Source: Piscinibacter sp. XHJ-5
GTDB taxonomy: Bacteria > Pseudomonadota > Gammaproteobacteria > Burkholderiales > Burkholderiaceae_C
Reading direction: 5' to 3'
DNA: 64,000 nucleotides
Assembly: GCF_029855045.1 (NCBI RefSeq)
Contig: NZ_CP123228.1
Location: 3,596,001-3,660,000 of the forward strand
Positions 41,693 through 45,572 of the stretch are shown piece by piece. The notes beneath the pieces were generated by a model that was not told the origin of the DNA, ran no database searches, and saw nothing but the letters and a program-made list of their open reading frames with translations. The translations under genes and the position numbers were made by a program. How positions within the stretch are numbered: the first letter of the stretch is position 1; each line of letters opens with the position of its first letter.

Positions 41693-42325
41693 ATGTCTTC
41701 GCCCCAGGCCCTGCGCATCGTCATCGTCGCGCCCGACACGCTCGCGGCGGACGCCGCCGATCCGCAGGCGGCGGTGGAAGCGGAGCGCTCGCGCAGCCTG
41801 CGCATCGGCATGCTGCAGAACGGCTACAACATCGTCGCAGTGCTCCCCGCCGATGTGTTCCTGCCGGACCGCCTTGCGCAGATCAGTCCCGACATGATCA
41901 TCGTCGACGCCGAGAGCCAGGCGCGCGACACGTTGGAGCACGTCGTCGTGGCCACTCGCGACGCACGCCGCCCCATCGTGCTGTTCACCAACGATGACGA
42001 CACATCGCACGTGCGTGACGCCATCGCCGCCGGCGTCACCGCTTATGTGGTGGCGGGACTCGCGGCCGAGCGGGTCAAGCCGGTGCTGGAGGTTGCGATG
42101 GCGCGCTTCCAGCACGAGGAAGCATTGCGGCGCGAGCTCGCCGACGCGCGCACGCAGCTGTCCGAGCGCAAGTTGATCGACCGCGCGAAGGGACTGCTGA
42201 TGACGCGCCATTCGCTGAGCGAGGACGAGGCCTACGCGCGACTTCGCAAGACGGCGATGGACAAGGGACTGCGGCTCGCCGACGTGGCGCAGCGCATCCT
42301 CGACGTCGCCGATCTGCTGGGCTGA
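41693..42325 (+). CDS. nasT: ANTAR-domain antiterminator, NasT type
   Basis: This 210-residue protein has an N-terminal response-regulator-like domain (about 8-140) and a C-terminal ANTAR RNA-binding domain (about 149-205). The ANTAR helices are SERKLIDRAKGLLMTRHSLS, EDEAYARLRKTAMDKGL and LADVAQRILDVADLL, with the conserved A-K-G-L-L-M and Arg/Thr positions. NasT proteins bind a two-hairpin leader RNA and prevent termination of nitrate-assimilation genes. Exactly such a leader follows this gene. The usual partner, the nitrate sensor NasS, is not in the window. Confidence 0.88.
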   Translation: MSSPQALRIVIVAPDTLAADAADPQAAVEAERSRSLRIGMLQNGYNIVAVLPADVFLPDRLAQISPDMIIVDAESQARDTLEHVVVATRDARRPIVLFTNDDDTSHVRDAIAAGVTAYVVAGLAAERVKPVLEVAMARFQHEEALRRELADARTQLSERKLIDRAKGLLMTRHSLSEDEAYARLRKTAMDKGLRLADVAQRILDVADLLG

Positions 42326-42440
42326 TCGCGCACAAGCCTTGTGCGCGGACCGCCACGCTTGGTGCGCGGCGGGGCGAAATTTGCTGGCACACCGCTTGCG
42401 TAATGACGGCAGGAAGGTCAACGGCGATCTTCCTCAGACA

Positions 42441-42531
42441 TCGATGCGCACCAAGGACGGTGCGCGTCGACAGGACGATGGCGTCCCCACTGAACCGGTT
42501 CGACCGGCGATGTGCGGACGCCTTTTTGTTT
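42441..42531 (+). promoter_or_regulatory. ANTAR-target leader with P1, P2 and overlapping terminator
   Basis: P1 is a 12-bp stem (42441-42452 with 42459-42470, one T-G pair) closed by the hexaloop AAGGAC, with A at position 1 and G at position 4 as in ANTAR targets. Two bases later P2 is GGAC-GATGGC-GTCC (42473-42486). The 3' arm of P2 is shared with GGCGTCC (42480-42486), which pairs with GGACGCC (42516-42522) before TTTTTGTTT to form a terminator. P2 and the terminator are mutually exclusive. The leader ends 36 bp before the transporter start. Confidence 0.85.
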
Positions 42532-42566: not shown

Positions 42567-43829
42567 ATGAACACACCTCTTCATCGAAAGTTCGACATGA
42601 GCCGCCGTCACCTCATCAAGGCCGCAGCCGCCACTGGCGCCGCTTCGCTCGTCCCCGGCCTGCAGAGTGCCGTGTACGCGGCGGGCTCGGACAAGCCCGA
42701 AAAGGAAGAGGTCAGGATCGGCTTCATCCCGCTCACCGACTGTGCATCCGTCGTGATGGCCTCCGTGCTCGGCTTCGACAAGAAGTACGGCGTGAAGCTC
42801 ATCCCGACCAAGGAAGCCTCGTGGGCCGGCGTCCGCGACAAGCTGGTCAACGGTGAGCTCGACATGGCGCATGTGCTATGGGGCCTGGTCTACGGCGTGC
42901 ACCTGGGCGTCAGCGGTCCGAAGAAGGACATGGCGATCCTGATGAACCTCAACCACAACGGCCAGGCCATCACGTTGTCGAAGAAGCTGGCCGACAAGGG
43001 TGCGATCGACGGTCCGTCGCTCGCCAAGCTGATGCAGGCCGACAAGCGCGAATACACCTTCGCGCAGACCTTCCCCACCGGCACGCACGCGATGTGGCTG
43101 TACTACTGGCTCGCGACCTACGGCATCAATCCGATGAAGGACGCGAAGATCATCACCGTCCCGCCCCCGCAAATGGTCGCCAACATGCGCGTGGGCAACA
43201 TGGACGGCTATTGCGTCGGCGAACCGTGGGGGCACCGAGCCATCATGGACGGCATCGGCGTCACCGGTGTCACCACGCAGGACATCTGGAAGGATCATCC
43301 CGAGAAGGCGCTCGGCACGACAAGCGACTTCGCCAAGAAATACCCCAACACTTGTCGCGCCGTGATCGCGGCGGTGGTCGAGGCCGGCAAGTGGATCGAC
43401 GCCAGCCTTCAGAACAAGTTGAAGATGGCCGAGACGGTGGCCGACAAGAGCTACGTCAACACCGGCGTCGACGCGATCAATCAGCGCATCCTGGGCCGCT
43501 ACCAGAACGGCTTGGGCAAGACCTGGGACGACCCGAACCACATGAAGTTCTACAACGACGGCGCGGTCTCCTTCCCGTACCTGTCCGACGGCATGTGGTT
43601 CCTGACGCAGCACAAGCGCTGGGGCCTGCTCAAGGACCACCCCGACTACCTGGCCGTGGCCAAGCAGGTCAACCAGATCGATCTCTACAAGGAAGGTGCC
43701 GCGCTCGCCAAGGCCAGCGTGCCCAAGGAGCTCATGCGCACGAGCAAGCTCGTCGACGGCACCGTGTGGGACGGCAAGGACCCGAAGAAGTACGCCGACA
43801 GCTTCGCGATCAAGGCGTCGGCCGTCTGA
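42567..43829 (+). CDS. nrtA: ABC transporter substrate-binding protein, NrtA/CmpA family
   Basis: This 420-residue periplasmic binding protein of the nitrate/bicarbonate family probably binds nitrate or nitrite. The N-terminus has a Tat-type signal (MSRRHLIKAAAATGAASLVP at 11-30, twin Arg at 13-14). The mature part shows VRIGFIPLTDCASVVMASVL and the family segments FPTGTHAMWLYYWLATYG and VGNMDGYCVGEPWGHRAI. Its ATG is at 42567; MSRRHL at 42597 is a possible shorter start. The leader indicates control by the ANTAR protein. Confidence 0.93.
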   Translation: MNTPLHRKFDMSRRHLIKAAAATGAASLVPGLQSAVYAAGSDKPEKEEVRIGFIPLTDCASVVMASVLGFDKKYGVKLIPTKEASWAGVRDKLVNGELDMAHVLWGLVYGVHLGVSGPKKDMAILMNLNHNGQAITLSKKLADKGAIDGPSLAKLMQADKREYTFAQTFPTGTHAMWLYYWLATYGINPMKDAKIITVPPPQMVANMRVGNMDGYCVGEPWGHRAIMDGIGVTGVTTQDIWKDHPEKALGTTSDFAKKYPNTCRAVIAAVVEAGKWIDASLQNKLKMAETVADKSYVNTGVDAINQRILGRYQNGLGKTWDDPNHMKFYNDGAVSFPYLSDGMWFLTQHKRWGLLKDHPDYLAVAKQVNQIDLYKEGAALAKASVPKELMRTSKLVDGTVWDGKDPKKYADSFAIKASAV

Positions 43830-43852: not shown

Positions 43853-44758
43853 ATGGTCAGTGCAGTGTTCCATTCACCGCTGGAGGCGGCCGCAGATGCC
43901 AAGGCGGCCGAGCCGGCCAAGCCGGCGCGCGTTTCGATCGCGACTCCCGCCGTCGCCGCTCCTGCGCCGGCGAAGTCGCCGGTCGACTGGAGTGGTCTCG
44001 CGCTCAAGGTCTTGGCGCCGATCGCCGGCATCGCGCTGCTGGTCGGCGTGTGGGCCTTGTTGACGATGAAATCCACTTCGTTTCCCACGCCGATGGCCAC
44101 TTTCGAGGAGGCGCTGAAGGTCTTCTCCGATCCGTTCTACAGCAAGGGGCCGAACGACCAGGGCATCGGCTGGAACATCCTGTTCTCGCTCAAGCGCGTG
44201 GCCATCGGCTTCGGGATGGCGGCGGCGGTCGGCATTCCGCTGGGCTTCATGATCGGCCGCTTCGACGTGCTCGACCGCATGGCGTCGCCGCTGATCAGCC
44301 TGCTGCGCCCGGTGTCTCCGCTGGCCTGGCTGCCGATCGGGCTGCTGGTCTTCAAGGCCGCCAACCCGGCGGCGATCTGGACGATCTTCATCTGCTCGAT
44401 CTGGCCGATGATCATCAACACCGCTGTCGGCGTGCAGCGCGTGCCTGACGACTACATGAACGTCGCCAAGGTGCTGAACCTGTCGGAGTGGAAGATCATC
44501 ACGCGCATCCTGTTCCCCGCCGTGCTGCCCTATATGCTGACGGGCGTGCGGCTGTCGGTGGGCACCGCCTGGCTGGTGATCGTCGCGGCAGAGATGCTGA
44601 CGGGCGGTGTGGGCATCGGCTTCTGGGTGTGGGACGAGTGGAACAACCTCAACGTCACGCACATCCTGATCGCGATCTTCGTGATCGGCACGGTGGGCCT
44701 GCTGCTCGAGTGGATGCTGATCGGCATCGCCAAGCGCTTCAGCTACGACAACGCCTGA
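43853..44758 (+). CDS. nrtB: ABC transporter permease, NrtB family
   Basis: This 301-residue inner-membrane permease belongs to the nitrate/sulfonate/taurine group. After a 45-residue Ala/Pro-rich cytoplasmic N-terminus come six membrane segments. The EAA loop that contacts the ATPase is NVAKVLNLSEWKIITRILFP (about 201-220). LRPVSPLAWLPIGLLVF is characteristic of the NrtB group. The ATG at 43853 follows GAGGAG, 24 bp after nrtA. Confidence 0.94.
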   Translation: MVSAVFHSPLEAAADAKAAEPAKPARVSIATPAVAAPAPAKSPVDWSGLALKVLAPIAGIALLVGVWALLTMKSTSFPTPMATFEEALKVFSDPFYSKGPNDQGIGWNILFSLKRVAIGFGMAAAVGIPLGFMIGRFDVLDRMASPLISLLRPVSPLAWLPIGLLVFKAANPAAIWTIFICSIWPMIINTAVGVQRVPDDYMNVAKVLNLSEWKIITRILFPAVLPYMLTGVRLSVGTAWLVIVAAEMLTGGVGIGFWVWDEWNNLNVTHILIAIFVIGTVGLLLEWMLIGIAKRFSYDNA

Positions 44759-44771
44759 GCCGGAGAACATC

Positions 44772-45572
44772 ATGAAGAACTTCATCGATGTGCACGACGC
44801 CGAGATGGTGTTCAGCACGAAGAAGGGGCGCTTTCACGCGCTGCGCGACATCAACCTGACGGTGGCCAAGGGCGAGTTCGTCACGCTGATCGGCCACTCC
44901 GGATGCGGCAAGTCGACGCTGCTCAACCTCATCGCGGGCCTGCTCACGCCGACGCAAGGTGCGCTGCTGTGCGACAACCGGGAAATCGCCGCTCCGGGGC
45001 CCGAGCGTGCGGTGGTGTTCCAGAACCACTCTCTCCTGCCATGGCTCACCTGCTTCGAGAACGTCCACCTGGCCGTCGAGCGGGTGTTCGGTGCCAGCGA
45101 AGGCAAGCCGCAGCTCAAGAAGCGCACGCAGCAGGCGCTTGAGCTGGTCGGGATGGGCCATGCGATGGGCAAGCGGCCGCACGAGGTGTCCGGCGGCATG
45201 AAGCAGCGCGTCGGCATTGCCCGAGCGCTGGCAATGGAGCCCAAGGTGCTACTGCTGGACGAGCCCTTCGGAGCGCTCGACGCCTTGACGCGGGCCCATC
45301 TGCAGGACGAGCTGCTGAAGATCGTGGCCCGCACGCGCAGCACGGTCGTGATGGTCACGCACGACGTGGACGAAGCTGTGCTGCTGTCGGACCGCATCGT
45401 GATGATGACCAACGGCCCCGCCGCCACGATCGGCGAGATCCTCGCCGTGGAGCTGGAGCGCCCTCGCAATCGCGTGGAACTCGCCGAGGACGGTCGCTAC
45501 GTGCACTACCGCAAGGAGGTGCTGGACTTTCTCTACACCCGCCACGGACATCACACGCTCGCCGCGGCCTGA
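44772..45572 (+). CDS. nrtD: ABC transporter ATP-binding protein, NrtD/CmpD family
   Basis: This 266-residue ATPase energises the transporter. Walker A is GHSGCGKST (about 39-47), the signature is VSGGMKQRVGIARALAM (about 139), and Walker B is VLLLDEPFGALD (about 160). The H-loop is MVTHDVDEAVLLSDR. It contains a single ATPase domain without the NrtA-like fusion of cyanobacterial NrtC. It lies 14 bp after nrtB and ends the operon before a strong terminator. Confidence 0.94.
   Translation: MKNFIDVHDAEMVFSTKKGRFHALRDINLTVAKGEFVTLIGHSGCGKSTLLNLIAGLLTPTQGALLCDNREIAAPGPERAVVFQNHSLLPWLTCFENVHLAVERVFGASEGKPQLKKRTQQALELVGMGHAMGKRPHEVSGGMKQRVGIARALAMEPKVLLLDEPFGALDALTRAHLQDELLKIVARTRSTVVMVTHDVDEAVLLSDRIVMMTNGPAATIGEILAVELERPRNRVELAEDGRYVHYRKEVLDFLYTRHGHHTLAAA

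Follow-up and report, generated by a model that had tools for sequence, protein, structure and literature searches.

The leader that precedes the nrtA-ntrB-ntrCD nitrate-uptake operon of Piscinibacter sp. XHJ-5 is very probably an antitermination leader driven by an ANTAR protein. It represents a known kind of ANTAR switch in a conserved and slightly atypical form. This account is built on what was observed, that is, the parts of the leader, their conservation and covariation, the overlap between the last hairpin (H3) and an intrinsic terminator, and an ANTAR gene that recurs as a neighbour. From these we infer promoter use, protein binding, a nitrate signal and antitermination itself. The whole stretch of DNA analysed, 64,000 nucleotides and hereafter called the window, contains the following features at this locus.

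41693..42325, + strand: NasT-like ANTAR gene, 210 aa (degenerate receiver-like part and ANTAR domain; PF03861 at 77.7 bits, cut-off 27.3), the likely regulator
42330..42344, + strand: NtrC-like palindrome GCACAAGCCTTGTGC, recognised by its spacing pattern; a second copy with one mismatch lies at 42353-42365
42385..42399, + strand: sigma-54-type promoter TGGCACACCGCTTGC, recognised by its sequence pattern and missed by the earlier note
42411..42434, + strand: hairpin H1, AGGAAGGTC[AACGGC]GATCTTCCT, A1/G4 hexaloop (sequence, folding, covariation)
42441..42470, + strand: hairpin H2, TCGATGCGCACC[AAGGAC]GGTGCGCGTCGA, 12 pairs, A1/G4 hexaloop; the middle, optional hairpin (sequence, folding, covariation)
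42473..42486, + strand: hairpin H3, GGAC[GATGGC]GTCC, G1/G4 loop; the antiterminator hairpin (sequence, folding, covariation)
42480..42527, + strand: intrinsic terminator, GGCGTCC ... CCGGTTCGACCGG ... GGACGCC followed by T5, which excludes H3 (sequence, folding, energy, relatives)
42567..43829, + strand: nrtA-like gene for a nitrate-binding protein with a Tat signal (PF13379 at 335.2 bits; TAT_signal 25.3 bits; NrtA 2g29 at E 7.3e-76)
43853..44758, + strand: ntrB, nitrate ABC transporter permease (TIGR01183 at 244 bits, cut-off 209.05)
44772..45572, + strand: ntrCD-type nitrate ABC transporter ATPase (TIGR01184 at 340 bits, cut-off 291.8)

The genes of the NrtA, ntrB and ntrCD types thus form a nitrate ABC transporter operon. 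The ANTAR gene that the earlier note had claimed beside the leader is present, and leader and neighbour recur in most of the relatives examined. Its product has PDB relatives in Rv1626 (1s8n), EutV (6wsh), NasR (4akk) and AmiR (1qo0), and combines a receiver-like part with an ANTAR domain, as expected of a NasS-NasT type regulator. The receiver part was recognised by alignment to Rv1626 and EutV and by weak NCBIfam hits, with no Pfam receiver at E 0.001; Pfam shows ANTAR alone, and no NIT domain. The usual receiver Lys is replaced by Ala. Among 84 NasT-like relatives, this position holds Ala in 73, Asp in 7 and Lys in 1, the remaining 3 being other residues or unread. Comparing the receiver residues of NasS-partnered and orphan NasT proteins gave no signal, Asp being present in both.

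The leader consists of three hairpins, the last of which overlaps the terminator. H1 (AACGGC) and H2 (AAGGAC) are tandem hairpins with A1/G4 hexaloops, as in ANTAR targets; the terminator-overlapping H3, with its GATGGC loop, lacks A1. H3 may alternatively close as GGACG[ATGG]CGTCC, with a tetraloop. It follows H2 by 2 nt, and its 3' side is the 5' arm of the terminator (GGCGTCC, 42480-42486), which pairs with the 3' arm (GGACGCC, 42516-42522) ahead of T5 (42523-42527), so that the two structures are mutually exclusive. The 12-bp AAGGAC hairpin, the hairpin 2 nt further on and the terminator sharing GGCGTCC, all previously claimed from the sequence, were found at the expected positions. What did not stand is the description of the target as "two-hairpin": three hairpins are present, H1 lies upstream of the interval then reported (42441..42531), and the hairpin then taken as P1 is the middle, optional one.

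Folding supported this layout. Compared with 200 dinucleotide shuffles, z values were -4.75 for 42437-42488 (H2 and H3) and -4.07 for 42470-42531 (the terminator region). The shuffle folding test also gave -4.22 for 42405-42468 (H1 and H2), -3.70 for 42405-42500 and -4.84 for 42405-42531. The terminator, including its inner stem, was computed at -20.5 kcal/mol, and H3 at -7.0 kcal/mol as a tetraloop or -5.0 kcal/mol as a hexaloop. Since the terminator is far stabler than H3, termination should be the default. A simple terminator scan, which admits loops of 3-8 nt only, did not return the 42480-42527 terminator, and the promoter and terminator scan of the window was uninformative.

By the sigma-54 consensus, the element at 42385-42399 is a putative promoter of that class, with a predicted start near 42411; the palindrome at 42330-42344 is likewise a candidate NtrC site by the NtrC consensus. 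Both patterns recurred in the family. Of 113 family leaders, 110 have a sigma-54-type site, 31-173 nt 5' of the H3 core, and 55 of 110 carry an exact GCAC-N5-7-GTGC in the 140 nt that precede the promoter, as against 71 of 2200 shuffles.

The family survey started from nrtA, which matched at E 1e-80 in 135 of 200 family genomes (136 matches). We used 130 of the 136 loci (30 loci and 100 stretches), leaving out two close to the end of a contig (G068, G083), two incomplete matches (G104, G141), one second copy (G170) and one distant match (G198). The H3 core GAC[R..G.C]GTC was found in 113 of the 130 loci, with a promoter-like site before it in 110, and was not found in the other 17. Core loops were AAAGGC in 56, AACGGC in 32, GACGGC in 8, GATGGC (that of the window) in 5, GAAGGC in 4 and others in 8; the search pattern itself imposes G4, C6 and a purine at position 1, so that the sole finding here is how often that purine is A or G. 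G-first cores numbered 18 of 113, all of them among the 19 close relatives aligned below, the other cores being A1. The departure of the second loop from the A1 rule, pointed out in the earlier note, is usual among close relatives: of the 21 loci ranking highest by nrtA score (L004, L031-L050), 16 have a G-first core. Overlap between a terminator arm and the H3 core was seen in 110 of the 113 leaders, whereas shuffling in 2-base blocks, a rough control, gave it in 220 of 2260. Conservation of this pairing in relatives had been named beforehand as a test, and the proposed exclusion of the last hairpin by a terminator ahead of a nitrate ABC transporter operon is borne out by the overlap seen here and by its recurrence in these leaders.

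An ANTAR gene was seen upstream, within the 1.5 kb fetched, in 113 of the 130 family loci and not in the other 17. In 84 it was NasT-like, that is, above 130 bits to the ANTAR protein of the window, and in 29 of another type, read by eye, where long enough, as having a NIT N-terminal part (NasR-like). The core loop tracked the regulator: AACGGC was present in 25 of 28 NasR-like cores and in 1 of 72 NasT-like ones (Fisher p 3e-19, a value that ignores kinship). Loci picked by the ANTAR protein alone gave a consistent picture. In 80 of 122 such loci, from named genomes (Methylibium, Rhizobacter, Azohydromonas, Acidovorax, Polaromonas and others), we found an NrtA-like gene in 74, promoter and core in 63 and a T tract in 62; among the 63 cores, 24 were G-first and 29 had at least two A1/G4 hairpins before H3. 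The nrtA-, model- and ANTAR-picked sets share taxa. One locus, L281, an ANTAR-nrtA locus in a MAG labelled Chitinophaga pinensis, stands near Burkholderiales ones and is probably mislabelled or contaminated.

Covariation was evaluated on alignment A2, which holds 19 of the 107 family leaders with promoter and terminator, hand-picked as close by nrtA or ANTAR and including the window; L037 and L046 (without the core pattern), L042 and L047 were not taken. Across H1, H2 and H3, 83% of cells were paired, and 0 of 500 shuffles reached as much. Pairs changed on both sides amounted to 17 of 26, a level reached by 1 of 500 shuffles, and the further pair types by 4 of 500; this control ignores kinship. 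By helix, pairing was 82.5% for H1, 60.0, 75.5 and 84.7% for H2, and 97.9% for H3. The terminator arms were paired in 97.7% of cells and nearly invariant, and their covariation was not above that of shuffles (481 of 500 as high) because the arms hardly vary. A1/G4 loops occurred in 18 of 19 leaders for H1, 13 of 19 for H2 and 1 of 19 for H3. The H3 loop starts with G in 18 of these 19 leaders, and with A in most other leaders; its G4 is kept in 19 of 19, which counts for little because the selecting pattern demands G4.

The number of hairpins varied. We considered 133 leaders, 110 from the family and 23 from other families; these 23 were recruited with RF03032, a model biased towards an AACGGC hairpin. 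Upstream of H3, 116 of 147 hexaloop hairpins (stem of at least 5) were A1/G4, and 30 of the 133 leaders had at least two such hairpins, as against 119 of 5850 shuffled remainders in which the best hairpin had been masked. None of the 28 family leaders with a NasR-like regulator was among those 30. Short relatives (for example, L052, L055 and L071) have only one first hairpin and H3, and in many leaders the middle hairpin is missing or non-canonical. The constant parts in relatives are thus the first hairpin and the terminator-overlapping H3, H2 being optional. The reading of H2 and H3 as the sole ANTAR pair was rejected, because the H1 loop is more constant and leaders without H2 retain the first hairpin and H3.

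Which two hairpins the protein would use is a matter on which these data bear in different ways. It is quite possible, if short of probable, that the working pair is H1 and H3, as in two-hairpin relatives, and that H2 is a mere structured spacer with a canonical loop by descent or chance. The short leaders point this way, as do the H1 loop, the most constantly canonical among close relatives, and the many leaders in which H2 is absent or has a non-ANTAR loop. The hairpin of RF03032, a model that does not include the window, also aligns to H1 (28.2 bits) in preference to H2 (15.4 bits). Yet in close relatives H2 pairs in 60 to 85% of cells by helix, covaries and has an A1/G4 loop in two-thirds of the leaders aligned (13/19), and an extra A1/G4 hairpin is commoner in the 133 leaders than in the shuffled trials; in addition, alignment A3 and model R1, described below, place window H2 opposite P1, the window being part of A3. 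We regard as rather doubtful the other reading, namely that in the window and its close relatives the protein binds H1 and H2, H3, with G1 and a possible tetraloop, being an antiterminator stem no longer contacted by protein. The distribution of A1/G4 loops over H1, H2 and H3 fits it, and Met172 of EutV may exclude smaller loops such as tetraloops (PMC8934654). However, A1 is not contacted by EutV according to the same source, and G1 may therefore be tolerated.

Two further explanations do away with the neighbouring gene or with regulation altogether. Control by the genome's second strongly matching ANTAR protein, which has receiver-like, ANTAR and PilJ parts and is encoded beside narK-nirB-nasA, is very unlikely. 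It would bring a plausible nitrate-sensing domain (PF13675), which has no recognised equivalent in the ANTAR protein of the window, but that gene adjoins a leader-like region of its own with different loops, a NasT-like gene adjoins the leader in 84 of 130 relatives, and some leader-bearing relatives (for example, G129, G044 and G014) have a single ANTAR match. Plain constitutive attenuation, in which the terminator merely lowers basal expression and the hairpins are incidental, can hardly be credited in view of the loop constraint, the covariation and the co-occurrence with ANTAR genes.

We thus favour antitermination by the adjacent ANTAR protein, which would operate as follows. In nitrogen shortage, RNA polymerase would initiate at the sigma-54-type promoter under the control of NtrC. 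The RNA would fold H1, then H2, then the terminator, with a stop as the default. In the presence of nitrate, the ANTAR protein encoded just upstream would be activated, contact G4 of the hexaloops, first of H1 and/or H2, and keep H3 folded. Folded H3 would consume the 5' arm of the terminator, and transcription would therefore continue into nrtA.

We compared the leader with RF03032, the Rfam motif narK RNA. The window scored 28.2 bits over H1 and 15.4 bits over H2-H3, as against a gathering score of 43.2, and was rejected as a member by score. The RF03032 consensus comprises a sigma-54-type promoter, a hairpin with the loop AACGGC and a further hairpin, ACGAC[AAAGAC]GUCGC, that Rfam does not model, and reads as P1 and P2 of such a leader, like the window; its structure line has one hairpin and no terminator, in contrast with the three hairpins and terminator of the window. 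At E 0.001, RF03032 matched in 17 of 150 family genomes, 0 of them over the cut-off, and all 17 loci had ANTAR upstream and an NrtA-like gene downstream. Among 250 order-level genomes, 28 matched, 3 over the cut-off. Of the 27 new loci, promoter and core were found in 23 by script and in L179 and L182 by eye, and L168 and L186 did not show the leader; by eye, 19 of the 27 had an ANTAR gene within the sequence fetched, and in 23 of the 27 the leader was followed by a gene of the NrtA, NarK or NirB type. Alignment A3 holds 16 hand-picked loci of the 27 and the window, others being omitted as near-duplicates, longer or unclear. In it, P1 and P2 were 97.8% paired with covariation and the terminator 96.1%. 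The counterpart of P1 is window H2 in A3 and in the model R1 built on it, and window H1 in RF03032. On the consensus, the loci and the pairing in A3, narK RNA therefore appears to be the promoter-plus-P1 fragment of an ANTAR leader. This would give a likely function to narK RNA, for which none was found in the literature searched; the phrase "narK RNA" itself had no match in that literature, which did not include the original motif paper.

Model R1 has 17 rows. In the whole genome it found one copy, that of the window, and no second; its 53 bits are not independent because the window is one of the 17 rows. In a class-wide sample, 28 of 229 genomes matched R1, the window's genome (G000) included, and all 28 were among the 73 with an ANTAR domain (p 2e-16, ignoring kinship). 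By eye, an ANTAR gene lay within 1 kb of the match in 20 of 28. In three loci from other families (L178, L181, L185), the same leader stands before narK-like genes and after an NrtA-like gene; in L181 and L185, that preceding gene encodes a NasS-like protein without an evident signal peptide and adjoins a NasT-like gene.

How nitrate would reach the regulator was approached with a NasS query, the 381-aa protein of L185, in which no signal peptide was seen by eye. The 43 genomes chosen for this query comprised 41 from the family, mostly with NasT-like neighbours, and 2 others known to hold a NasS-like gene. At E 1e-15 it matched NrtA alone (53%) in the window's genome, so that no NasS was found there, a very distant one being still possible; the next PF13379 match in that genome had 74 bits as against 337 for NrtA. 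The absence of NasS from the window, claimed in the earlier note, thus holds and, within the reach of these searches, applies to the whole genome. A single match was obtained in 25 of the 41 family genomes, and 15 gave extra matches only at 31-37%, where a distant NasS is possible; G170 gave two matches above 50%, consistent with NasS. By contrast, genes nasS and nasT are named in Acidovorax citrulli (PMC10052978), where the protein called NasS may be an NrtA. Many NasT-like regulators of this group seem to lack a recognisable NasS, to judge from these searches; where that is so, nitrate has to be signalled to the regulator by a different route. One proposal is a three-hairpin leader in which recruitment (H1, H2) is split from antitermination (H3, with G1 and able to form a tetraloop), served by a NasS-less NasT that receives the nitrate signal from the folded, unexported Tat precursor of NrtA. 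We consider this combination improbable, and NrtA as its own sensor is a guess. By a loose pattern, the Tat motif was present in 46 of 72 NasT-like, 20 of 28 NasR-like and 8 of 13 loci with no regulator; as it occurs with both regulator classes, it does not single out the idea.

The genome holds further ANTAR genes. The second (L030:8722-10026, - strand) encodes receiver-like, ANTAR and PilJ (PF13675) parts and is divergent from a narK-nirB-nasA operon. Between them (L030 10055-10330, + strand) lie a sigma-54-like site and hexaloop hairpins [GACGCT], [AACGCC] and [AATGGC], with no obvious terminator; this stretch may be another ANTAR leader, one that works by some means other than termination. 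These features sit 3.7-5.3 kb past the right end of the window, and [GACGCT] recurs in L191. A search with the ANTAR-PilJ protein (L002:790-2091, - strand) gave 2571 relatives at E 1e-40 or better among 8000 scored, and both domains were present in all 120 of those listed; the protein is likely a one-component nitrate regulator of a design other than NasR. The third ANTAR match (L003, G000:C1:4213070-4216198) was weak, at 27.6 bits. It is a response regulator that retains the usual receiver Lys and adjoins, by eye, an apparent histidine kinase, in a PdtaS-PdtaR-like arrangement.

The ANTAR dual-hexaloop targets already described (EutV eut, NasR nasF, AmiR amiE) share with the window A1/G4 hairpins before a nitrogen operon, a last hairpin overlapping an intrinsic terminator and an ANTAR gene in the genome. 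Ramesh 2012 (PMC3369931) defined the dual A1/G4 hairpins and gave terminator-overlapping candidates before nitrogen genes, including nitrate/nitrite transporters, with Burkholderia named; its main text, the sole one checked for these phrases, contains neither "three hairpins" nor "third hairpin". In contrast to these targets, the window and part of its relatives have three hairpins, and the terminator-overlapping loop is G-first in the window and its close relatives. NasS-NasT of Paracoccus denitrificans has a receiver-like and ANTAR protein beside nitrate genes and a hairpin leader, as in the window; NasT binds the nasA leader, which has a series of hairpins (PMC3795266). The window differs in that no NasS was found in its genome and that its leader precedes a gene for an NrtA with a Tat signal. 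NasR is listed as a NIT-ANTAR protein (PMC8199190). In 29 of 130 family loci, the position ahead of a leader of this kind is held by a NasR-like type, assigned by eye, whereas the regulator of the window has no NIT domain in Pfam and the NasR-like leaders have AACGGC in H3 (25/28 cores).

In the structure of EutV, G4 stacks on Tyr164, A1 is left uncontacted and the dimer is unable to hold both loops together (PMC8934654). How an ANTAR dimer passes from the recruitment hairpin to the antiterminator is left open by that structure, and the natural two- and three-hairpin versions of this leader offer a test case for it. With NasT-type regulators that have no recognisable NasS, the identity of the nitrate sensor becomes a testable question.
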